A stretch of DNA of 64,000 bases from positions 248,001-312,000 of the forward strand of contig JAJCXM010000022.1 in assembly GCA_029263455.1 (NCBI GenBank). Direction: 5' to 3'. Of this stretch, positions 4,714 through 42,340 are shown in pieces (positions within the stretch are counted from its first letter, which is position 1; every line of letters begins with the position of its first letter). This stretch comes from Holophagae bacterium. GTDB taxonomy: Bacteria > Acidobacteriota > Holophagae > Acanthopleuribacterales > Acanthopleuribacteraceae. Both the position numbers and the translations under genes were made by a program. Under the pieces are notes generated by a model. The model made no database searches. It was given only the letters and a program-made list of their open reading frames with translations, and was not told the origin of the DNA.

Positions 4714-5226
4714 TTACAGTCGGCTCTTAAGTTCTATAAGGTCTTTGACAAGACCAATATAGGCCATGTCGACAGGTGAAAATGTTCGTGCAGTATTTGT
4801 TTGGTCAAAAACGAATAGCCATTTCGAATCGTCAGCAAGCACCATCGAAAAAGCCAGGTCAGTGCCAACACCGTCAACGGGAGACTGAACCAGACCATCG
4901 GACTCTAGGGCGGTTTGCAATGTTTTGTCGTCTTCTAAAGGCACGTAGCTCGAGTCCCAATCCTGCATGCGAACAATGTTTTTGCCCGTGTTCCAGCCTG
5001 AGACGATGTCTCCAGTGCGCATATCACATACGAAAATACGATCAACGCCTAACCATTTTTGCCAATATGCGATGGCAGAGCCAACAAAATCGAGCAGCGT
5101 CGCATGGGGTGAAGCGACCAACCTGACCAGCTCTCCGCGGACGGCTTCTATTTCAAGAGCCATCATTTCATGAAGGGCTTGGTCTACACGCTGCATATAG
5201 GGTTTGCGATGTTGAGAGGGAAACAT
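4714..5226 (-). CDS. GAF-like domain protein, function unknown
   Basis: This 170-residue soluble protein has an N-terminal helical segment and then an alpha/beta pattern typical of GAF sensory folds: a conserved-looking core (VDRIFVCDMRTGDIVSGWNTG), a hydrophobic strand (SMVLADDSKWLFVFDQ) and a terminal helix. No output domain is attached. It lies 43 bases downstream of the exchanger gene in the same direction and converges on the sigma-54 regulator, so it may be co-transcribed with the exchanger. I see no strong ribosome binding site at the ATG; a second ATG ten codons in is possible. GAF assignment is by pattern only. Confidence 0.55.
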   Translation of the reverse strand: MFPSQHRKPYMQRVDQALHEMMALEIEAVRGELVRLVASPHATLLDFVGSAIAYWQKWLGVDRIFVCDMRTGDIVSGWNTGKNIVRMQDWDSSYVPLEDDKTLQTALESDGLVQSPVDGVGTDLAFSMVLADDSKWLFVFDQTNTARTFSPVDMAYIGLVKDLIELKSRL

Positions 5227-5269
5227 GAATATAGATTAACAGACGGCCGAGTAACTGGGAATGGCGAAG

Positions 5270-6262
5270 TTAAGGACTTAAGTTAGTCCACCAGATGCAA
5301 GCGTAAACCAAAATGAAAAAGAGACCTGTCGATCGCGCTACCGGTTTCTTTTTCATGGCAAGTGTTGTGAAAAATATCATTGTCGCGAACAACGAATAAA
5401 AAGGTATCAACGCTGAGCTTGACCATGATTGAAATGCGGCGGTCGATATGGGCGTCAGAAGGGACGACAAGCCAATCACAAGTGGGATGCTTACTAGGCA
5501 ATCACCTACGAGACCGGAAATCCCCAGATTCCCCTTGCGCAGCGCTAAGCGTAACATCAGGAAGCTTTCTGGGAATACAGTCAAGAGCCCCATTAACAAA
5601 CCTAGCTGTTGCATATTGATGGATTCGCCAAACGTTTGTAAACCTTGAGAGACCAAAGCCACGCTTTGTTGGATCATGATTGCGGCTATTGCTAAACCTA
5701 AAAAGATGAGGCTTAAATCTCTAAAACTTAGCTTCTGCTTTTTTGACACCTTGCCTCGCTCCCGCAAAGAAAACAATTGGGAAACCGCGTAAAGGCCAAC
5801 TAACCCCAACCCGTCGAGCCTCGTTATCTGACCGTCACGACACATCCACAAAAGCAAGATGGCGCCGATCCATAGAAAAAACAGGGTGGAGGCAAAAGCG
5901 CGATTCTCTCGTTTTGCCTTCTTACTGCGCCCTTTACTGGGGCGAATGAGCAGGGGCCCGGCGACAAGTAAAAGTAGGCCTGTTACCAGTGACGTATTAG
6001 CGATGTTATTACCTATATTCAATTGAATAATGAGGTCGCCTTGCAGGCGGGTCTGGCCAAAAAGTCCAATCATGAGATTGGGAAAGCCGGTACAAAGTGG
6101 TGTGATTAGGACGCCCAATTGAACGGAGCCAAATTTGTGTTTTTCTAGCTTCGAAAGGACCCAAATAACGACTTGCGTGGCGAAAAGCAGTCCCAAACAC
6201 CCTAAGCTCAAAGCAGAAAGAGGACTTAACGCCGCTAGCCAGGTTTCAAGAATTTGTAACAT
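5270..6262 (-). CDS. CaCA-superfamily cation exchanger (sodium/calcium exchanger-like membrane protein)
   Basis: The protein is about 330 residues with ten or so hydrophobic segments and the two inverted alpha repeats of the Ca2+:cation antiporter superfamily. Repeat 1 contains GVLITPLCTGFPNLMIGL followed by GNNIAN; repeat 2 contains LTVFPESFLMLRLAL followed by a GD...SIPLVIGL segment. Family members use a glutamate in each repeat to bind the cation; here repeat 2 keeps it (FPES) whereas repeat 1 has asparagine (FPNL). I start at the ATG at 6262 rather than the upstream in-frame TTG at 6283. The gene diverges from the E1 dehydrogenase gene. Transported ion is not predictable from sequence alone. 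Confidence 0.75.
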   Translation of the reverse strand: MLQILETWLAALSPLSALSLGCLGLLFATQVVIWVLSKLEKHKFGSVQLGVLITPLCTGFPNLMIGLFGQTRLQGDLIIQLNIGNNIANTSLVTGLLLLVAGPLLIRPSKGRSKKAKRENRAFASTLFFLWIGAILLLWMCRDGQITRLDGLGLVGLYAVSQLFSLRERGKVSKKQKLSFRDLSLIFLGLAIAAIMIQQSVALVSQGLQTFGESINMQQLGLLMGLLTVFPESFLMLRLALRKGNLGISGLVGDCLVSIPLVIGLSSLLTPISTAAFQSWSSSALIPFYSLFATMIFFTTLAMKKKPVARSTGLFFILVYACIWWTNLSP

Positions 6263-30100: not shown

Positions 30101-30588
30101 ACGTCAACAATACCGCCCCTGCGTGCATACTCGCCGACTTGGGTGATCAAGTCGACACGCTTGTAACCCATAAGCTCGAAGTCAGTGCAGAGCCGCGCCG
30201 GGTCAATCGTTTCACCTGCCTGACAATTTACGCAAGGCTCGGCCAATCGGCTAAATGGAGGTAGCGCTTCGATTAATGCTTTGGGTTGAGTTATGACAAC
30301 ATCCCATGTCTGTGCTTTCAGCGCGCCTAAGAATGCAAGACGATCACGTTTTGCAGCTTCGTGGATTGGCGCATGCAAAGAGGGACTTCCGGGCCGGGGC
30401 GGGTAAACAAATACGCGAAGACTAGGATCAAAGGTTCTAATATTGTCTGCGGTAGCTTCTAGGTCGCTAGATCTTGTCGTCACATATACCGTAGGCTGCG
30501 ATCGCTCTACGACATACAAAACCGAAGCATTACTGCGTAATCCATGCAAGTCTATTTGCCGTTGCGATTTGAGTTTAAATTCACTCAT
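27166..30588 (-). CDS. mfd: Transcription-repair coupling factor
   Basis: The 1,140-residue protein has the standard Mfd architecture: an N-terminal UvrB-like region, an RNA-polymerase interaction domain (LKSDDFVVHADHGVGQFRGL), the SF2 translocase with Walker A GDVGFGKTEVAMR, DEEQ box VIDEEQRFGVGHKEK and SATPIPRTLNMAL, the TRG region and a C-terminal domain. It removes stalled RNA polymerase from damaged DNA and recruits UvrA. The ATG overlaps the end of the Nudix-NadD gene by 8 bases, so it is translationally coupled and last in the long minus-strand gene run. Confidence 0.97.
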   Translation of the reverse strand: MSEFKLKSQRQIDLHGLRSNASVLYVVERSQPTVYVTTRSSDLEATADNIRTFDPSLRVFVYPPRPGSPSLHAPIHEAAKRDRLAFLGALKAQTWDVVITQPKALIEALPPFSRLAEPCVNCQAGETIDPARLCTDFELMGYKRVDLITQVGEYARRGGIVDVFPLTAEYPYRLEFFDDELEEIRTFDLLSQRSLENHQQIDIPPLSEWIPTEDDRVHFSHRGGQAWNRTSSRNHLLEIVSQLQNYGSFVGYEHWTAFFFKETVHLLDLMPLKSCLFLDDPDSIYEELNDLIRDRVLQAEHAKNSKQIYAEPLDLWALGHRFHLEVPEPIDVVMSHHLAMGRHEIELGTRPIVRYEADPIRGFEEWIQRAQRYAVILVCSSKGAYDRLSEMIHDRELTARQLDFPTSLAGLGAGLYLARGNLDKGFEWPDRKLAVLSDHDIFPPQRRRARPLKAGKKAFVTDLRDLKSDDFVVHADHGVGQFRGLVEVEVGGLKTEMMALEYRGQDRLYVALSQLHKIQRHGNSQSGSSLDKLGGTGWAQTKTRAKKAVRKLAVDLVKLYAQRVVVRGIRCGSDTTWQTEFEDSFEFEATQDQLQATQDIKSDLTSGEKPMDRLLVGDVGFGKTEVAMRMAFKLAMDGYQVAILCPTTVLAFQHFMTFKARFAAFPVKIAWLSRFTPSSELKPIMQEITSGAIDILIGTHRILSKDVQFKNLGGIVIDEEQRFGVGHKEKLKQLRKRAHVLSMSATPIPRTLNMALTGIRDISVIETPPRNRLAICTSVMGYRDGVVQNAIRFELDRSGQSYFIHNRVQNMQEIAKTIADLVPEARVGMAHGQMESHQLEKVMISFMNHEIDVLVCSTIIENGVDIPNANTMIINRADHFGLSQLYQLRGRIGRSDRSSFAYLMVPPKAQMTVEARRRLSALEEFSDLGSGFRIAAMDMELRGAGDLLGANQAGHIQAIGYEMFVKLLESTVAELKGEQIEDDVECLLNLKIGAAIPRSFIENTNQRLHYYKLIYGASDLDRLADIHGELEDCYGEIPDEVNLCFGESLLKLQLGHHKVLSVDREGQRIKMKFHQDALVETAVVLDWMKTDNQVQLTPDGQLSFPVSPHLQGQFLIEEIAQKMTTLLGADFETQVKEQLV

Positions 30589-31570
30589 GATGTTGCTTAG
30601 AGCGTATGGCGGTCGAAGAAATCGATTCGTAAGAGTGATGGGGTAACTCGATAATGCGACAGGATGAATTTGCTTTCACCCAATCTTTTGCCTGTTCCAG
30701 CTGATAAGCGTTTTCTTGACGTGGAACGACATAGATAGCCGTCATTGAGCCAATGAGTCCCAATGCGTTTGTCCATTGTCGCAAATTGATGAAGCTATCT
30801 GCACCCATCAGGAATTGACGATTTCGAGATGCCATTTTTGGCAGCCACCCATAGGTCGGGTTGCCTAGTTCTGAAGCTAAAAAGCCAGGAAACACATGTA
30901 TCTTACGGCTGTGTGTTTGTTTATTTATGTGACGAAAATGCGCCCAATCGCATCCTCGTTCTTGATCGGGTTTGAAGGGGCTGCGATCTGGTACCACGAC
31001 CAATTCGCGGTCGGTTGCGTCACTGGCTAGCTGTAAGCAGGCGTCGTGTCCTTCGTGCCATGGATTAAAGCTGCCACCAAAGAAGAGAGGGTTCTCGACG
31101 GCCGGCGGCACGGACCACAGGCGCTTAGACTCACCAGCACCGTGAAAGAGTGGCCAGTGACGAGAAAGCGCATCGCATAGGATTGCCCCATGATCAAAGG
31201 CCAGGTCATCAAGCTCATTGAGCAAAACCCATTCTGCTTGATGAGCATCATCACCAGCTTTTACGTCGGGCGCATTTGCAAGGTAAACCGAGTATGGCTG
31301 CGTAACCGTCCAACCACGAGGATCACGGCCCTTCTTGGCGCGTAGTGTTAAGGGGGTTAGGTCCCAATGATCGAGTTTAAGGTTTGTTTCTTCTAGACAT
31401 TCACGCAACGCAGCTTGGACGGGGATTTCGTAAGGATCTACGAAACCGCCCGGCAAAGCGTAGGCGCCAATATAGGGCTCATTGGCGCGTTTGATAAGTA
31501 AAACCCTGGTGTCGGCATCGCTTCCGGTGAATACGACCACATCGACGGTCAAAGCAGGGCGTTCGTACAT
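30581..31570 (-). CDS. nadD: Bifunctional Nudix hydrolase - nicotinate-nucleotide adenylyltransferase fusion
   Basis: Residues 1-140 form a Nudix domain: ALPGGFVDPYE at 38-48 leads into RECLEET, a good match to the GX5EX7REUXEEXGU box with asparagine for the last glycine. KGRDPRGWTVTQPY resembles the ADP-ribose pyrophosphatase/NrtR group. Residues 160-329 are a nucleotidyltransferase with GGSFNPWHEGH at 165-175 (usual GGTFDPxHxGH) and ISSTAIR near the end, as in NadD. The two activities would make nicotinate adenine dinucleotide and clear ADP-ribose or related compounds. Known NadM-Nudix proteins have the reverse domain order. The gene lies one base after the M20 gene. Confidence 0.88.
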   Translation of the reverse strand: MYERPALTVDVVVFTGSDADTRVLLIKRANEPYIGAYALPGGFVDPYEIPVQAALRECLEETNLKLDHWDLTPLTLRAKKGRDPRGWTVTQPYSVYLANAPDVKAGDDAHQAEWVLLNELDDLAFDHGAILCDALSRHWPLFHGAGESKRLWSVPPAVENPLFFGGSFNPWHEGHDACLQLASDATDRELVVVPDRSPFKPDQERGCDWAHFRHINKQTHSRKIHVFPGFLASELGNPTYGWLPKMASRNRQFLMGADSFINLRQWTNALGLIGSMTAIYVVPRQENAYQLEQAKDWVKANSSCRIIELPHHSYESISSTAIRSKQHHE

Positions 31571-33044: not shown

Positions 33045-33911
33045 CTAAAAAATCGATTGCGCTTTCATATCACGTAAATGATCTCGTAGGGCGGTTTCCC
33101 AGTGGCGCATGGGATGCCCCGTCAATTGATTGAAACGGCGATTATCTAAGATGGAATATGCCGGTCTGTGCACTTTCGATTGAAATTCCGATGCTTTGAT
33201 AGGTACAAGTTCGGCCGGTAGTTTAAGCACATCAAAAATCACTTTTGCGAAACCGAACCAGGATGTATGTCCTGATTGTGTCATATGAAAAATACCGCGT
33301 CCTTTTGATTCCAAGAGTAGCAGGATGGCGCCAGCCAAATCTAAGGTGTAGGTGGGCGCCACAATTTCATCATTGACAACGGTCACCCTGTCTCGTGTTC
33401 GGCCTAGATGAACCATGTTAGTTATGAAGTTACCGCCCTTGGCTCGGGTAGGTATGGCGCCATAGAGTCCGCAACTGCGGACAATGCTCACATCGACACT
33501 GCCATACGCGGTGACCATGTGCTCGCCGGCCAATTTACTGACCGCATAAGTATTCATCGGACAGGGCAGATCCTGTTCGTTGTATGGTGCGTTTTTGCGA
33601 CCGTCAAAAACGTAATCAGTACTTATGTGACAAAGATGGATTCTCTCTTCTCGGCAAACAACAGCCAGGTTTCGAGCTCCGATTGCGTTGACCTCAAATG
33701 CCCGATGATAATTTTCTTCGCAGGCTGGGACTTGATGGAAAGCCGCTGTGTTGACAACGGCCTTTGGCTTGGCTTTTTTAATGAACGTCCGAACATGATC
33801 AATCACCGTGATGTCGAAATCCGCGTGCACAGCAGGAATAGCTTGATCCATAATGCCCATCAAGTCGGTCCCAAGCGCTCCATTAGCGCCGATTACAAGG
33901 GTGCGTTTCAT
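33045..33911 (-). CDS. rfbD: dTDP-4-dehydrorhamnose reductase-like protein
   Basis: The 288-residue short-chain reductase has the Rossmann start TLVIGANGALGTDLMG, VVNTAAFHQVPACEE, the HISTDYVFDG segment and the catalytic pair in NTYAVSKLAGEHMV, all characteristic of RmlD/RfbD, which performs the last step of dTDP-rhamnose synthesis. No rmlA, rmlB or rmlC gene is in the window, so an RmlD-like role on another sugar nucleotide is possible. A rhamnosyltransferase-like GT2 is encoded 15 kb away. The start overlaps the cmk stop by ATGA. Confidence 0.85.
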   Translation of the reverse strand: MKRTLVIGANGALGTDLMGIMDQAIPAVHADFDITVIDHVRTFIKKAKPKAVVNTAAFHQVPACEENYHRAFEVNAIGARNLAVVCREERIHLCHISTDYVFDGRKNAPYNEQDLPCPMNTYAVSKLAGEHMVTAYGSVDVSIVRSCGLYGAIPTRAKGGNFITNMVHLGRTRDRVTVVNDEIVAPTYTLDLAGAILLLLESKGRGIFHMTQSGHTSWFGFAKVIFDVLKLPAELVPIKASEFQSKVHRPAYSILDNRRFNQLTGHPMRHWETALRDHLRDMKAQSIF

Positions 33912-34591
33912 GTCAGGGCCTCCAACGAATCTAGTGATTTCAGCCGTTTATTTGCTTCATTTAAAGCGATTTCAAGGACTTGTTCAATACTGAGATCGTC
34001 CGTCGCAATTTCCAATGCATCATCTGCCTTGCGCAACGGAGCGATGGCTCGTGACATGTCTTTTTGATCGCGTTCTATTTGATCTTCAAGTATAGAACTG
34101 AGACTGGAGTTCGGGTCCGTTTTGACCTGCTCAAGCCAGCGTCGACGAGCACGGGTTTGGGGCGATGCCGTAACATAGATTTTCAGAAAGGCGTTCGGGA
34201 AAACGATGGTCCCAATATCGCGCCCATCCAAAACACAAGCTTGCGTAGTCGCGAACGCACGTTGCTGTTCCGTCAAATGATTTCTTACTTCAGCAACGGC
34301 AGAGATGAGGCTTGTGTGCCTAGTTACGTCTGGACGGCGTATGGCATCGGTAACGTCAATCTGATTGAGTAAAAAACGATCTCCATCAAGTGTAATGTCC
34401 TGACTGGCAAGCCAGGTCTGATCTTTAAGCAGTTCAGGGTCTGAACCCTGATTGAGCCAGGCCAGAGCAATGCATCGATACATGCCGCCAGTGTCGAGGT
34501 ATTGCCAGTTCAATCGCTGGGCTAATTTATGTGCCAGCGTTGACTTTCCGACGCCGCTCGGGCCGTCGATGGCGATAACTCGAGCCTTCAT
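33908..34591 (-). CDS. cmk: Cytidylate kinase
   Basis: The 227-residue kinase phosphorylates CMP and dCMP. It has the P-loop IDGPSGVGKSTLA, LDTGGMYRCIALA, the CMP-specific VLDGRDIGTIVFP motif, the LID RARRRWLEQ and a DQIERDQKDMSRAIAPL segment. Length is standard. Its ATG overlaps the stop of the pseudouridine synthase gene by 4 bases and its stop overlaps the rfbD-like start in the same way. Confidence 0.96.
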   Translation of the reverse strand: MKARVIAIDGPSGVGKSTLAHKLAQRLNWQYLDTGGMYRCIALAWLNQGSDPELLKDQTWLASQDITLDGDRFLLNQIDVTDAIRRPDVTRHTSLISAVAEVRNHLTEQQRAFATTQACVLDGRDIGTIVFPNAFLKIYVTASPQTRARRRWLEQVKTDPNSSLSSILEDQIERDQKDMSRAIAPLRKADDALEIATDDLSIEQVLEIALNEANKRLKSLDSLEALT

Positions 34592-36075
34592 TTTTTACCC
34601 CGTCCCCCCCGGGAAGACCCTTTTTTGAGGCTGGGCCGCCGATCCGTGGTGAACTTGCGCTCATCCGATTTTGGCCTCTCATGTTTCGGGCGTTCAGATT
34701 GAGTACGAGAGCTTGCTGGGCGTCGATCTGACGAACCGCTACGCTTGCTTGCAGCTGGGCCTTCGCCAGTTCTTGGCTTACGCTCAGGCCGTGTTGCACG
34801 ATCGGAATTGCTAGAAGAGCGGGAATCGGAGCGTCCTGTGGAGCGTGAATCGGAGGTGCCAGAACGGCTACTCCGACTGTCGGCACCTACATCGCGGCCC
34901 GTTCTTGGTCTGGGCCTAGCCGGTCGGTCCCCTTCAGGTTTATACGAACTAGATCGTTCTGTACCGCGACTGGGTCGACGGTCAGAGGTGTTCCGTTGGT
35001 CAGATTCAGACTCGTCCTGACGTGTCCTTGGCCGAGACGCTGTCTTCGAATAGGGCCGGCTCGATGACGGTGGGCTGCGTTTATCGCCTCGGCTGGGATG
35101 TTCCGATCTGTTACGGCTTTGGCGTGGATCTCTTTCAGAATCAGAACGGGGATCAGGCCGTGGTCGGCGTTCAGGTCTATCTTTTTCGTCGGGACGCCTG
35201 GTTCGGCTTTCTTGCCTTGGATCGCGACTCGTCGTCCTTGATTGACTACTTGAACGCAGTCCGGATCTTTGTGATCCAGGTGTAAATGTGCGCTCTGGGC
35301 GTGGTGTCTTGATGGGTACGCCAGCTTTTCTTAGTTCAGCGAGTCCATCGGGCGAGCGTCCGTATTCACCCTTTTGCAGCGCTTCGACTTCAGCCTCAGT
35401 TAGAGTTCTGAATTCGCCCGGTTCGAGTTCACCTAACTCAATGCCTGCAAAGGCGATTCGCTTAAGTTTTGATACCGGGTGTCCAACGTGTTCGAATATT
35501 TTGCGTAAATGGTGTTTTTTGCCTTCGTACAGAACAACACGTAGCCAAGCGTTCTTTGGGGTATCGAATAGGCTTATTTCGCAACCTGCATAGCGCAATC
35601 CTTCGATGGTTACACCACGTTCAAGACGTGCCAAAGATTTAGCGTCTGGGATACCGGAAACTTTTACAAGGTAGGTCTTATGGCATTTAGAACGAGGCGA
35701 CAGGAGTTTATGCATGAGGTCGCCGTCATTGGTAAGTAGTAGGGCGCCTTCCGATTGAAAATCCAGTCGACCGATTGGGTAGAATCGACCCTTTACACCG
35801 CGAATTAGGTCGGTGACCACGGGGCGGCCCTCTGGGTCGGAAACGGTGGAGACCACGCCCTTGGGTTTGTAAAGCAGGACGTAAATAAGACTGTCGGGAA
35901 GCGTGATTCGTTTTCCGTCAACTTTAATATGGTCGTTCATGGGGTCCGCTTTGCTACCTAATTCATCGACAACGGTTCCATTGACGGTGACTCGGCCTTG
36001 TTCGATAAGTTCCTCTGCAGCACGTCGCGATGCGACACCTGCTCGGGCGAGTATTTTTTGGATGCGTTCCTGCAC
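34588..36075 (-). CDS. rluB: RsuA/RluB-family pseudouridine synthase with long charged low-complexity C-terminus
   Basis: Residues 1-250 are a normal large-subunit-type RluB: an N-terminal S4 RNA-binding domain (RIQKILARAGVASRRAAEELI) and a catalytic core with GRLDFQSEGALLLTNDGDL, where the aspartate is the nucleophile, plus GKKHHLRKIFEHVGHPV. From about residue 255 to 495 the sequence is almost only Arg, Ser, Asp, Pro, Glu, Lys and Thr and is surely disordered. Enteric RluB has a shorter tail of similar type. The GTG start shares a base with the upstream TAG stop (TAGTG), indicating coupled translation with the LOG-RNase III gene. Confidence 0.9.
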   Translation of the reverse strand: MQERIQKILARAGVASRRAAEELIEQGRVTVNGTVVDELGSKADPMNDHIKVDGKRITLPDSLIYVLLYKPKGVVSTVSDPEGRPVVTDLIRGVKGRFYPIGRLDFQSEGALLLTNDGDLMHKLLSPRSKCHKTYLVKVSGIPDAKSLARLERGVTIEGLRYAGCEISLFDTPKNAWLRVVLYEGKKHHLRKIFEHVGHPVSKLKRIAFAGIELGELEPGEFRTLTEAEVEALQKGEYGRSPDGLAELRKAGVPIKTPRPERTFTPGSQRSGLRSSSQSRTTSRDPRQESRTRRPDEKDRPERRPRPDPRSDSERDPRQSRNRSEHPSRGDKRSPPSSSRPYSKTASRPRTRQDESESDQRNTSDRRPSRGTERSSSYKPEGDRPARPRPRTGRDVGADSRSSRSGTSDSRSTGRSDSRSSSNSDRATRPERKPRTGEGPAASKRSGSSDRRPASSRTQSERPKHERPKSDERKFTTDRRPSLKKGSSRGGRGKK

Positions 36076-37373
36076 TATTTCTTCTCCGACGTTAGGGTGT
36101 TTTGTACTTTATTGATCTGTTGCCAAGCATCGCTGTCTTCAAGTACTTGTTTGGCGGCGGCTTGTTGTGCATTCTTTTTTGAACTGCCCCAGGCTTGCCC
36201 GTAGTGTGTGTCCACAATCTGAACCGACATGAGGTAACGACGATTGTGAGCGGGCCCTGATTCTTCCATTAGAACATAATCGGGTAGGCCCATGCCCATG
36301 CCTTGTACCCGTTCTTGGAGTTCTGTTTTAAAGTCTTGTTGTTCTTTCAGATTTAATTCTGTTGCGTTTATTTCCTCTTCAAATAGCCTATCAATGAATG
36401 TAGAAGCGGCTTCAATTCCTCCGTCCATGGCAACCGCAGCGATGATGCCTTCCATCGCGTCGGCAAGGATGGAATCTTTCTTGGCACCGCGCGACCGGCG
36501 TTCTCCGGTCCCTAACCGCAGATGTCTACCTAAGTTAAGTTCTTGAGCTTTTTGCGCTAACATCTGCGCGGAAACGATTGCGGACTTCTGTTTGGAGAGA
36601 TCTCCTTCGCGAGTGTTTGGGTGAGCGTCAAAAAGTTTCTGAGCCACTAAATAGCCCAGAATAGAGTCGCCTAAAAACTCCAAGCGTTCATTGTGTCGAA
36701 CGTTTTTCTCAAATCCAAACGACGAGTGCGTGAGTGCTTGTTGTATCAGGGTTGGGTTTTTGAATTGATAACCGAGTTTCGATTCGAGGCTCGTCATCGT
36801 GGCCTCCACAAAAGGGACATATTCTACGCTGTTGAGATGGCATTCGTCTATGCTCATTAGCGAACCAATAGCAGAAACACACTCTGCAACCGTATTTACA
36901 TGTTGCCATTGTAGATGTTCGTAGGGAATGATTCCTAACTTTTGGCTGCGTTCTATCCAATTTGACAGTGGTCTCATTTGGGCGCCTAGTATCAAGATCG
37001 GTCTAGAAAGCCGAGCATCTTTGCGAGCGCTGGCAAGCAAATCAAATATTTCGAAGGCGGTTCCGACGCCGCCAGAAAAGGCGATAAACAGATCACCTCG
37101 TGACATAAGGACCTGTTGCCTTTGATGCAGATCATCAAATCGTGACGTCTTTTGAGCGTATGGACTCTGTGTCCGATTGGGCACAACCAACTGGACGGCC
37201 TCCGTTTCGCCACCCGCATCACGTGCGCCCTTGAGGACCGCGTCCATCAAGCCCGGACCGCCGCCGGTGATGACTAGGTGCCCCATTTGAGCTAACGAAT
37301 GACCAAGCTGGTGGGCAACCTGTAAGTCTTTTTTTCGGTGTTCAAAACTGCCACAAAAGACGACGATATTCAT
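36075..37373 (-). CDS. rnc: Fusion of a LOG-family nucleotide hydrolase domain with ribonuclease III
   Basis: Residues 1-185 form a LOG/TIGR00730-type Rossmann domain: VITGGGPGLMDAV at 35-46, the arginine in HQRQQVLM and SGGVGTAFE at 100-108 (usual PGGxGTxxE). Such proteins cleave cytokinin or purine nucleoside monophosphates to base and ribose phosphate. Residues 193-432 are a complete RNase III: NERLEFLGDS at 228-237 and DAMEGIIA with the catalytic acidic residues E232, D236, D305 and E308, then a double-stranded RNA binding domain at 344-414. An in-frame ATG at residue 193 has its own GGAGG five bases upstream, so a free RNase III may also be made. Confidence 0.92.
   Translation of the reverse strand: MNIVVFCGSFEHRKKDLQVAHQLGHSLAQMGHLVITGGGPGLMDAVLKGARDAGGETEAVQLVVPNRTQSPYAQKTSRFDDLHQRQQVLMSRGDLFIAFSGGVGTAFEIFDLLASARKDARLSRPILILGAQMRPLSNWIERSQKLGIIPYEHLQWQHVNTVAECVSAIGSLMSIDECHLNSVEYVPFVEATMTSLESKLGYQFKNPTLIQQALTHSSFGFEKNVRHNERLEFLGDSILGYLVAQKLFDAHPNTREGDLSKQKSAIVSAQMLAQKAQELNLGRHLRLGTGERRSRGAKKDSILADAMEGIIAAVAMDGGIEAASTFIDRLFEEEINATELNLKEQQDFKTELQERVQGMGMGLPDYVLMEESGPAHNRRYLMSVQIVDTHYGQAWGSSKKNAQQAAAKQVLEDSDAWQQINKVQNTLTSEKK
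36795..36807 (-). promoter_or_regulatory. Internal ribosome binding site and start codon for a standalone RNase III
   Basis: Inside the fusion gene, GGAGG (36807-36803, minus strand) is followed after five bases by an in-frame ATG (36797-36795). Translation from here gives MTSLESKLGYQFKNPTL, exactly where ordinary RNase III proteins begin. Confidence 0.6.
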
Positions 37374-37376
37374 GAT

Positions 37377-38729
37377 TTAGAATCTAAATGTGAGCTGACC
37401 GCGATGGTGGAGTTCCAGCTGGTTTGGAAGGCCGATTTCTTTCTCAATGAGCTGGGCAGCTCGAACTGTTTTGTCTTCGTAACGACGATCTAAAAATAGA
37501 TAAAAGTGCCACAGTGCGCGATGTCCGTCGCGTAGTGCGTCTAATTCGGGGTGATGGACATCTGACAAACGAATCATGGGTCCCGAATCTACCCGCACCT
37601 GCACGTTGGCTTCTTTTAGGCGCATTTCTGATTCGGGTGCGTACAAAATAAGGGCGCTTACGGGGATACCAAGCGAGCGCGCCAGTTTTCGTTCTAACTT
37701 GCCGCGCGCACCGCGTTGATTCAGGTGGAAGTCATTTTGAATGCGTTGCATGACCGTATCAGGAGTAGAATCACCCGTTAATGGGTCGCGACTCACCATG
37801 TATACCCGCTTGTAGAGACGACGTGAGCTGTAGGCGTGCCATAAGGGTTCGAATTCATGGACCTGATCGATGCGCTGACCAAGTAGGTAAGTAAAGCTGT
37901 CGTCCCTTAGTCCGTACAATTCTTCAATGCGGAATACGTCTTGTTCGAGCATGGCTTCTAAGAGACGAGACAACATGGCTCCGGCGACCACTTTCGCATG
38001 ATGGTAATAGACACGTTCTGTTAAATGAAAACGCATGCGTAATAAGTTGATCAGTTCCGTCCATGCGTCCTGTCTGAAACCGCGTTCACTATGCAAACTA
38101 AAACACAAATGTCCGGCTTCAAGGGTTAGGTACTTGAAGATTCGAAAATCATAATCCAATTTGAGTCCACAGTAGTAAGCGTCCCGTTTTAGGTAGTCCA
38201 GCAGGTCCGCGCATATGGGACCCGCCACAAGGTCGTATGCATAGGACGGGAGTTGGCTTTTCCCTGCAGTGAAGAATTCGAGCAATTGATCTTGGATGCC
38301 CAAGTCCCGTAGAACTTGCCCCAAACCTAGCGAGTCCAAGAAATGGTGAAGACGTGCTTGGCTCTTGTCATGAGCAGGAATAATGCGCCTTTCATCTTCG
38401 AATGTGTGGCCGAAAGGAATATGTGTGATGTCGTGCAAGAGCGCGGCAATGGCCAAAAAGTCAGTTTCTTCACGGCTGATGGGCGACGCTAGTCCATTGT
38501 TAGCCGCTCTCGTGTTGATCTCACCGATGAGTTGCTTGAGGATCCAGCATGTACCAATCGAATGTTCAAATCGTGTGTGCTGTGCACCTGGAAACACTAA
38601 ATAGGATGTCCCCAGTTGTCTGATGCCCCTCAGGCGCTGAAATTCGGGCGTGTCTGTGATTCGCAACTCTTGCTGGGTGAGTTGGATATCACCATGGACG
38701 GGATCACGAAGTGTTTTGGATTTCATCAT
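37377..38729 (-). CDS. HD-domain phosphohydrolase (dNTPase/YdhJ-like)
   Basis: The roughly 450-residue protein has the HD superfamily metal site in the order used by dNTP triphosphohydrolases and SAMHD1-like proteins: KTLRDPVHGDI at the N-terminus, FEHSIGTCW with the first histidine, AALLHDITHIPFGHTFEDE with the HD pair and a distal aspartate in ADLLDYLKRDAYYCG. The substrate is unknown; relatives hydrolyse dNTPs or (p)ppGpp-like nucleotides. I start at the ATG-ATG pair near 38729; a GTG seven codons earlier is possible. It is followed after 3 bases by the LOG-RNase III gene. Confidence 0.85.
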   Translation of the reverse strand: MMKSKTLRDPVHGDIQLTQQELRITDTPEFQRLRGIRQLGTSYLVFPGAQHTRFEHSIGTCWILKQLIGEINTRAANNGLASPISREETDFLAIAALLHDITHIPFGHTFEDERRIIPAHDKSQARLHHFLDSLGLGQVLRDLGIQDQLLEFFTAGKSQLPSYAYDLVAGPICADLLDYLKRDAYYCGLKLDYDFRIFKYLTLEAGHLCFSLHSERGFRQDAWTELINLLRMRFHLTERVYYHHAKVVAGAMLSRLLEAMLEQDVFRIEELYGLRDDSFTYLLGQRIDQVHEFEPLWHAYSSRRLYKRVYMVSRDPLTGDSTPDTVMQRIQNDFHLNQRGARGKLERKLARSLGIPVSALILYAPESEMRLKEANVQVRVDSGPMIRLSDVHHPELDALRDGHRALWHFYLFLDRRYEDKTVRAAQLIEKEIGLPNQLELHHRGQLTFRF

Positions 38730-38767
38730 GTTAGGGGCCACGTATGTCACTTAAATAATGGGACATT

Positions 38768-40191: not shown

Positions 40192-40360
40192 TGTAGCTTA
40201 GAACAGGTCTAGAGAACAGACATCAGCCTGACAACGATGCGCGATTGTCAAAACTCTCAAGCAGTTGGCCACCTAAGTATGATTTAATGTGTCATGGAGT
40301 CGTCTGTCGCGAGCTTCCAAAATACATAAACTCATACCGACAAAAGCCATTAGTTTATTT

Positions 40361-42340
40361 ATGACGCAAGATTCAAAAACCACAAAAACCATCGGGCGCT
40401 ATGTCGTTCAGAGTCTTCTGGGCGAAGGTGCTATGGGGTCGGTGTATAAAGCTTTAGACCCCGTTATTAAACGCGTCGTGGCCATCAAGACGATTAAGCT
40501 TGATCAGAGTCGTAATGAAGTTGATCAAAAAGAATTCGTACAGCGATTTTTTCAAGAAGCCCAAATAAGCGGCATCCTGAATCACCCCAACATCGTAAGT
40601 ATTTACGATATCGGCGAACAAGATGGCATGCCCTACATCGCCATGGAGTATATCGAAGGTCGCAACCTTAATCAGGTGATCAACGACCAAGAAGATCGAC
40701 CCGATGTTGTTAACCTAGCGCAGATCATCTTGCAGGTGGCAAACGCGCTGGAGTTTGCTCATGGCAAGGGTGTCGTTCATCGTGACTTGAAACCTGGCAA
40801 CATCATGGTGATGCCCAATGGGGTCGCAAAGATCATGGATTTTGGCATCGCCAAAATGAGCGGGTCCCATTTGACTCAGACCGGAGTGTTCCTGGGTACG
40901 CCAAGTTTTGCGAGTCCTGAACAGATTAAGGAAGGCCAAGTAGATCACCGTTCGGATATCTTCTCTTTAGGTATTTTGGCCCATGAAACCATCACGGGCT
41001 ATACACCCTTCCCGGGCCAAAGCATTTCTGCGATTTTGTACAAAATCGCCAACGAGCCGCCGACTCCGGCACCTAATCTCAAAGATCTCCCGCTTCAAAT
41101 ACCCCAATGGCGCGCTGTTTTTGAACGCGTTTTCCAGAAGGAACCGGGTCAACGATATCAGCATGCTGGTGAATTTGGGCAAGACCTCTTAACCAGTCTA
41201 GCCTTCACTTCCCAGCAAGAAGACGCGCTTGGCACCTTTGTCGGTCAAGTTAATGCCTCCGTTAGGGACGCGTTCGGCATTCAAAAGGACATTCAACGAT
41301 CCGATTTTGAAAAATCTCAGGCTCCCAAACCGGTCATCGCTCGCATCCAAAAGAAATCGTCGCCCTTGAAGTGGGCAGCGGTCCTGGTTTTATTGAGTGT
41401 AGCGGCTGTGTTTGGTCTATTTAAGGCCGGCGTGATTGGGGATGGAGAGCATCTGGCATCGATCATACCGGCAGACATCGCCAAGGAAATATTACCTGCG
41501 CGTACTTTGGAAAAAACGGTCATGATCCATTCCCAGCCTGAAGGGGCTCAAGTCTACATAGACGACCAATTGAGTGAATTCAAGACGCCCCATGCATTCT
41601 TGTTGAGCGGAGATGAAGATCAGGTTTTTTCGGTTCGATTGGAAATTGATCAACACGAACCCAATACGCGCACAATTAGCCTGAAGCCTGATATGGCGAC
41701 AGAGCTGACGATTGAACTAAAGGTGTTACCTTTTGAACGCGTCATTAAAACAAGCCCAAGCGGCGCTGTGGTTAAAGTAGACGGGAAAGCGATTGGCCCA
41801 AGCCCTTTAGAGTTCTCGTTTGCTCCAGAGCAAAGCTATCAAATTGAAGTTAGCCTTGAAGGCTATGATCGTAATGAGACCACCTACATAGAAGGCCAAT
41901 CGGCTGTCTCATCGTTAGAGATGAAACTAGTCAAGGTGCTACCACCTGGAAAAATAGCCGCCAACTCAGCGATTTCGGATCTTAAATTGACGGTCAATGG
42001 CAAGACTTACAACAACTCTGTCAGCCTGCCCCGCGGCACGTATGAGGTGAGACTGGTATCGCGAAAATACTTTTTTGATCAACGCCAACGAGTCACCGTC
42101 AGAGCCGGTGAAACAAGCACGCTCTCGGTGCCTCCTGTGGTGACCATCAAGCGCATCAATATCTTGCGTGGATACGCAAATGTGAAGATTGATGGTCGGA
42201 CGGTCGATATCACGCCCATCCGAAACTTAGAGTTGGTTGCTGGCAAGCACGCTTTTGAATTTGTGGATGACGATGGTAATATGATCAGCCAATTCGAGCG
42301 TGACATTGTGGGTGGTGAAGACATTGTTGTGGATCATTAG
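40361..42340 (+). CDS. Transmembrane Ser/Thr protein kinase with extracytoplasmic PEGA repeats
   Basis: The 660-residue protein has a complete Hanks-type kinase domain: GEGAMGSVYKA at about 21, VAIKTIK, HRDLKPGNIMV near 139, DFGIAK near 160 and GTPSFASPEQI. One transmembrane helix lies near 336-356. Outside are at least two PEGA domains (SQPEGAQVYIDD near 390 and SPSGAVVKVDGKAIGPSP near 463) and a third related repeat near the end. It should sense the envelope and phosphorylate cytoplasmic targets. The ATG at 40361 is chosen because kinase homology begins right after it. It overlaps the next gene by 26 bases. Confidence 0.93.
   Translation: MTQDSKTTKTIGRYVVQSLLGEGAMGSVYKALDPVIKRVVAIKTIKLDQSRNEVDQKEFVQRFFQEAQISGILNHPNIVSIYDIGEQDGMPYIAMEYIEGRNLNQVINDQEDRPDVVNLAQIILQVANALEFAHGKGVVHRDLKPGNIMVMPNGVAKIMDFGIAKMSGSHLTQTGVFLGTPSFASPEQIKEGQVDHRSDIFSLGILAHETITGYTPFPGQSISAILYKIANEPPTPAPNLKDLPLQIPQWRAVFERVFQKEPGQRYQHAGEFGQDLLTSLAFTSQQEDALGTFVGQVNASVRDAFGIQKDIQRSDFEKSQAPKPVIARIQKKSSPLKWAAVLVLLSVAAVFGLFKAGVIGDGEHLASIIPADIAKEILPARTLEKTVMIHSQPEGAQVYIDDQLSEFKTPHAFLLSGDEDQVFSVRLEIDQHEPNTRTISLKPDMATELTIELKVLPFERVIKTSPSGAVVKVDGKAIGPSPLEFSFAPEQSYQIEVSLEGYDRNETTYIEGQSAVSSLEMKLVKVLPPGKIAANSAISDLKLTVNGKTYNNSVSLPRGTYEVRLVSRKYFFDQRQRVTVRAGETSTLSVPPVVTIKRINILRGYANVKIDGRTVDITPIRNLELVAGKHAFEFVDDDGNMISQFERDIVGGEDIVVDH

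Follow-up and report, generated by a model that had tools for sequence, protein, structure and literature searches.

Within the window, that is, the whole 64,000-nucleotide stretch of Holophagae bacterium DNA analysed here, the minus strand carries a single unbroken ORF of 432 aa (36075-37373), running from an ATG (37373) to a stop (36075), in which a LOG/SLOG domain is joined in frame to a complete ribonuclease III (RNase III). The same fusion, stop-free and 53% identical over 421 residues, is present in the congener HKST-UBA04 (metagenome-assembled genome G001, contig JAGQSC010000027.1). We lean towards reading this locus as a nested two-product gene, by which a conventional RNase III would also be available as a LOG-tagged form with an altered nucleotide pocket. 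If the fused form is functional, the nucleotide network of LOG/SLOG proteins would be linked directly to a core RNA-processing enzyme, a connection of which we found no description.

Architecture of the fused frame

The first-pass annotation, made from the sequence of the window, had described one frame holding a LOG domain followed by a complete RNase III with four catalytic acidic residues and a dsRNA-binding domain (dsRBD); ORF scan, Pfam and NCBIfam agree on this architecture, and the two motifs it named, GGGPGLMDA and SGGVGTAFE, were found as written in the LOG domain. The frame matches Lysine_decarbox (PF03641, 3.8e-16) and LDcluster4 (PF18306, 3.6e-13) as well as Ribonucleas_3_3 (2.6e-35) and dsrm (PF00035, 9.8e-16), all above the gathering cut-offs. 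Its sequence matches in the PDB are LOG phosphoribohydrolases over residues 3-150 and RNase IIIs over residues 194-412. In a full-length AlphaFold2 model (mean pLDDT 90) both domains are of high confidence and the linker is disordered at residues 176-188; the low pTM (0.55) indicates no fixed mutual arrangement of the LOG and RNase III domains. The alignment behind this first model mixed full-length and single-domain rows, and the second half of the LOG rows was misplaced in it. The LOG domain was re-modelled alone from a clean alignment (pLDDT 94); its fold is complete and agrees with the full-length model.

The RNase III part looks conventional in its sequence features. It scores 233.1 bits against TIGR02191 (cut-off 166.25; 224.2 bits in the congener), and E232, D236, D305 and E308, which we take to be the RNase III catalytic positions, are present in both species. 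Among 24 relatives, E232, D236 and E308 are found in all 24, and position 305 holds D in 16 of them and N in the other 8. The closest fold is that of E. coli RNase III. The catalytic domain, the dsRBD and the four acidic residues are common to bacterial RNase III (rnc; E. coli 7r97, M. tuberculosis 2a11), from which the window protein differs by the LOG domain and the disordered linker lying in frame before them.

Table 1. Coordinates of the fused gene, its parts, the embedded elements and the adjacent genes in the window.
Feature	Position	Strand	Remarks
cmk, (d)CMP kinase, third gene of the rnc-rluB-cmk run	33908..34591	-	
RluB-like rRNA pseudouridine synthase, directly downstream of the fusion	34588..36075	-	
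Fused frame: LOG/SLOG domain, linker, RNase III and dsRBD, 432 aa	36075..37373	-	
dsRNA-binding domain, residues 349-412	36138..36329	-	PF00035 (dsrm)
RNase III catalytic domain, residues 194-335	36369..36794	-	E232, D236, D305, E308
Internal in-frame ATG (Met193), where solo rnc genes start	36795..36797	-	
Linker, residues 173-192	36798..36857	-	Predicted disorder 176-188; bears the embedded rnc signals
Shine-Dalgarno-like GGAGG, 5 nt before the internal ATG	36803..36807	-	
Promoter-like TAGACG-N18-TAGAAT	36821..36850	-	9/12 consensus matches; consensus match and conservation
LOG-like Rossmann domain, residues 1-172 (end at about 172)	36858..37373	-	R85/E108 kept; Q86, F107, S100 changed
HD-domain gene (HD and HD_assoc_2), directly upstream of the fusion	37377..38750	-	

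Putative signals of rnc embedded in the linker

The simplest reading of the junction is that the LOG frame crosses the promoter and leader of the ancestral rnc, both of them still in use. A mechanical promoter scan found the promoter-like element also at the corresponding position of the congener (L032, 10022-9993). Both hexamers are the same there, the spacer is not, and the second hexamer starts 29 bases before codon 193 in both species. The match to the consensus is modest (9/12), and 0.6-0.9 such matches are expected per 900 bases of shuffled sequence. An element of the form TGGACA-17-TA[GT][AG]AT lies upstream of rnc in four of the five solo rnc orthologues. At the same aligned codon 193 the congener has TTG, with GGAG 8 bases before it. 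The Shine-Dalgarno (SD) sites of the two species are in different codon registers, so that the encoded residues differ and the DNA signal stays. In the solo rnc genes of the family the protein begins at this position too, mostly with a GGAG-type site. Internal combinations of SD and start sites have a frequency of about 0.0008 per codon in these genomes, which amounts to about 1.6% per 20-codon linker per genome.

In addition, the codons of the linker are unusually conserved. Where a residue is the same in the two species, the codon is also identical at 8 of 9 positions in the linker versus 65 of 204 in the rest of the gene (Fisher p 0.0009), the gene-wide value being 34%. Among 3832 nine-residue windows from 13 gene pairs, 14 reach eight identical codons, and five of these 14 are in the linker region. 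Six more are in a kinase gene (40289-42340), in the part that it shares with the start region of the following ORF, suggesting that the codon-conservation measure picks up embedded signals. Against use of the inner start, the mRNA around it is predicted to be less accessible than average (21st and 22nd percentile). Because the promoter, SD site and start appear to be retained and the linker codons are so conserved, separate synthesis is likely, and the cell probably also makes RNase III that lacks the LOG domain. As an observation on the kinase gene itself, codons 652-672 of this Ser/Thr kinase (42242-42304, plus strand) are near-identical in DNA between the two species; the next ORF starts at 42300, and an embedded translation or promoter signal is likely there.

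We propose that, in the ancestor of the genus, a LOG gene of a divergent subclade and an HD-domain gene came to sit just upstream of the single rnc, and that the LOG frame traverses the former promoter and leader of rnc and continues into that gene. Two products would then arise: transcripts entering via the HD gene would be translated into the 432-aa LOG-RNase III, and the inner promoter, together with the ribosome-binding site at codon 193, would supply a separate RNase III of about 240 aa. RNase III would perform its usual processing of double-stranded RNA, and the LOG domain, tethered to it by a flexible linker and having the catalytic pair, the phosphoribose site and a changed base pocket, would most likely bind or cleave a nucleotide other than AMP. 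We infer from the conserved signals and the pocket residues that the inner start is used, that both forms are produced and that the LOG substrate has changed. Whether or not the fused form has a function, the locus offers a clear snapshot of how two genes can fuse while a promoter and a ribosome-binding site between them stay apparently intact; a fusion of this kind would give a nested two-product gene, and the original protein would not be lost. Salmonella SpaO (PMC13059759) likewise has a long product and a C-terminal short product from an internal start; in contrast to SpaO, the inner start in the window, here a predicted one, appears to be an older gene start with its own promoter.

Alternatively, in line with the nucleotide control suggested in the first-pass annotation, all RNase III of the cell could bear the LOG domain, which would sense or cleave a nucleotide and thereby control RNA processing. 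The frame is intact in two well-diverged species, the active-site sets of both parts are kept, and the window genome has no RNase III match besides the fused gene, all of which would suit such an obligate bifunctional protein. RNase III works as a homodimer. LOG does so as well (PMC4979012), and a 2:2 assembly would then be possible. However, the promoter, SD site and start codon are conserved at the old rnc start, the linker is predicted to be disordered with no fixed contact between the domains, and the LOG part changes much faster than RNase III (38% vs 68% identity between the congeners), so we regard the obligate form as rather unlikely. The stop-free linker in both species has, by our estimate, a chance expectation of roughly one in four, and therefore does not decide for or against a role of the fused form.

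An altered pocket in the LOG domain

The LOG domain scores 79.5 bits against TIGR00730 in the window and 84.8 in the congener, and a solo relative reaches 92.6, all below the cut-off of 96.35. Its closest folds are the type-II LOGs CgLOGII (5wq3) and T. thermophilus TT1465 (1wek), with a TM-score of about 0.8 over the domain, and it shares with them the Rossmann fold, the Arg/Glu pair and the motifs GGGPGLM and GGxGTxxE. In contrast to the type-II LOGs, the window LOG has Gln in place of Lys, Phe in place of Asp and Ser in place of the Pro of PGG, besides being fused to RNase III. The GGxGTxxE motif reads SGGVGTAFE in the window and PGGIGTLFE in the congener, canonical LOGs having PGG. The catalytic Arg and Glu (R85 and E108 in the window, corresponding to Arg155 and Glu178 of CgLOGII) are invariant in 81 of 81 aligned LOGs, and the nine columns invariant over 37 LOGs, which include this pair, are all kept in both fused copies. 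Loss of either active site, named in the first-pass annotation as an observation that would refute its reading, was not seen in either copy: Arg85/Glu108 and the four acidic residues of RNase III are intact in both.

The changes concern the adenine site, where the usual Lys is Q86 and the usual Asp/Glu is F107 in the window LOG (Lys156 and Asp177 of CgLOGII). In the clean alignment, all five LOGs of the subclade have RQ and F/Y-E, and the other 32 of 32 have RK and D/E-E. In CgLOGII, Lys156 and Asp177 are among the residues that hold the adenine; replacement of Arg155, Lys156, Thr175 or Glu178 by Ala abolishes AMP hydrolysis, and that of Asp177 almost abolishes it (PMC5379747). Similar mutant results have been reported for CgLOG (PMC4979012). 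A plain AMP phosphoribohydrolase seems unlikely, because both adenine-contacting residues are lost, and an ordinary nucleotide N-glycosidase is doubtful, the Lys and Asp/Glu needed by CgLOGII (PMC5379747) being absent. Since the base pocket is altered and the phosphoribose side of the site is kept, the ligand may be a nucleotide or phosphoribosyl compound with another base, or may be bound without hydrolysis; neither AMP nor a cytokinin nucleotide should be taken for granted as the substrate of this LOG subclade.

In the LOG tree, whose joins are to be taken with care because of long branches, the two fused domains are sisters (support 95/84). Their group also holds two Candidatus Gottesmanbacteria LOGs and, from a different genus of the family, a solo LOG whose gene adjoins groEL; it lies apart from the canonical LOG, which both species also keep. 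The closest relatives of the fused LOG are solo LOGs of Acidobacteria bacterium DOLJORAL78_46_51 (beside groEL) and of two Candidatus Gottesmanbacteria, at 36-42% identity. They are stand-alone proteins of about 180 aa with no RNase III nearby, unlike the fused domains, and they bear the same Lys-to-Gln change and an Asp-to-Tyr change where the fused LOG also has an aromatic residue, so the pocket changes predate the fusion. The subclade with RQ and F/Y (L059-L061, L031:9233-9769) is common to acidobacteria and Candidatus Gottesmanbacteria, a spread that suggests transfer across phyla and another substrate. A Peregrinibacteria LOG (L089) also deviates at both adenine-site positions.

The frame might also be merely shared, with the LOG domain under relaxed constraint and without a role for RNase III. 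Between the window and the congener, identity is 38% for the fused LOG, 68% for RNase III, 58% for the dsRBD, 68% for the HD gene and 54% for the canonical LOG. The two fused LOGs are as distant from each other as are the window LOG and a solo LOG from a different genus (41%), whereas the neighbouring genes and the canonical LOG paralogue are 51-83% identical. This faster change leaves room for relaxed constraint, as do the long branches in the LOG tree and the loss of the PGGxGTxxE proline in the window copy. However, the invariant columns are all kept in both copies, AlphaFold2 gives a confident and complete LOG fold, and neither LOG domain has a stop or frameshift; we hold a mere passenger to be unlikely. 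A nucleotide may nevertheless control RNA processing. One specific form of it, which we consider quite improbable, is a nucleotide-responsive ribonuclease: the reshaped pocket would bind a specific nucleotide, for example a modified one from RNA turnover, and alter the activity or localisation of the tethered RNase III, and the inner start would give unregulated RNase III, so that the cell sets the ratio.

Distribution and gene neighbourhood

Conservation of the fused frame in related genomes, which the first-pass annotation had named as a supporting observation, holds in the one congener and fails outside the genus, both in five other genomes of the family and in the phylum sample. HKST-UBA04 is the single carrier among 61 relatives, and rnc is solo and in front of rluB in all five other family genomes examined. 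Across 396 Acidobacteriota genomes, none of the listed matches other than the window/congener pair covers both domains. No fusion besides that of the congener was found among the best 80 LOG loci (one genome per species), and no match in plasmids and phages covers 80% of the fused query; all these scans favour close relatives, and distant independent LOG-RNase III fusions may exist. On present data the fusion is a single event restricted to one genus (two species), its absence outside the genus indicating a local event. In agreement with the earlier remark that no protein of this type is described, our literature search returned no paper on a LOG-RNase III protein; the architecture tables of the SLOG survey (10.1093/nar/gkv1267) were outside its scope. 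An assembly or annotation artefact joining two genes has a negligible probability: although the window comes from a draft genome and the congener from a metagenome-assembled one, and LOG and rnc are separate genes in the five family genomes, a pattern that the first-pass annotation had named, along with a sequencing error here, as refuting, the same join with an alignable linker and the same gene order is present in an independent assembly of a different species, which argues against both chance and sequencing error.

The gene order HD, fusion, rluB, cmk is identical in the window and the congener. The order rnc-rluB is kept across the family, and the solo rnc of other genera also has rluB(-cmk) as neighbours. 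The stop of the HD gene and the LOG start are 3 bases apart in the window. The HD gene was considered as a native partner of LOG and rejected, because it is family-wide (59-68% identity), adjoins LOG-rnc only in the fusion genus and is placed elsewhere in other genera. A defence system was also rejected: PADLOC gave a marginal PsyrA match (E 0.0004) and, for the HD gene, a distant dGTPase-like match (3e-6), and the genes are surrounded by housekeeping genes.

Several other features of these loci were noted. The RluB-like protein (34588-36075, minus strand) has a low-complexity tail of about 240 aa rich in Arg, Asp and Ser; in the congener the tail consists of RDDRPRS-type repeats, and the length of the gene is very variable in other genera. 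In SKS1.bin59, a canonical LOG and an RNase III gene are no more than 3 kb apart on opposite strands (L137, 2024-2599 minus and 4956-5552 plus), probably by coincidence. A further fusion in the window (30581-31570, minus strand, 329 aa) joins a Nudix domain to a NadD-like nucleotidyltransferase; it is also present in the congener and partly seen in genome G004.
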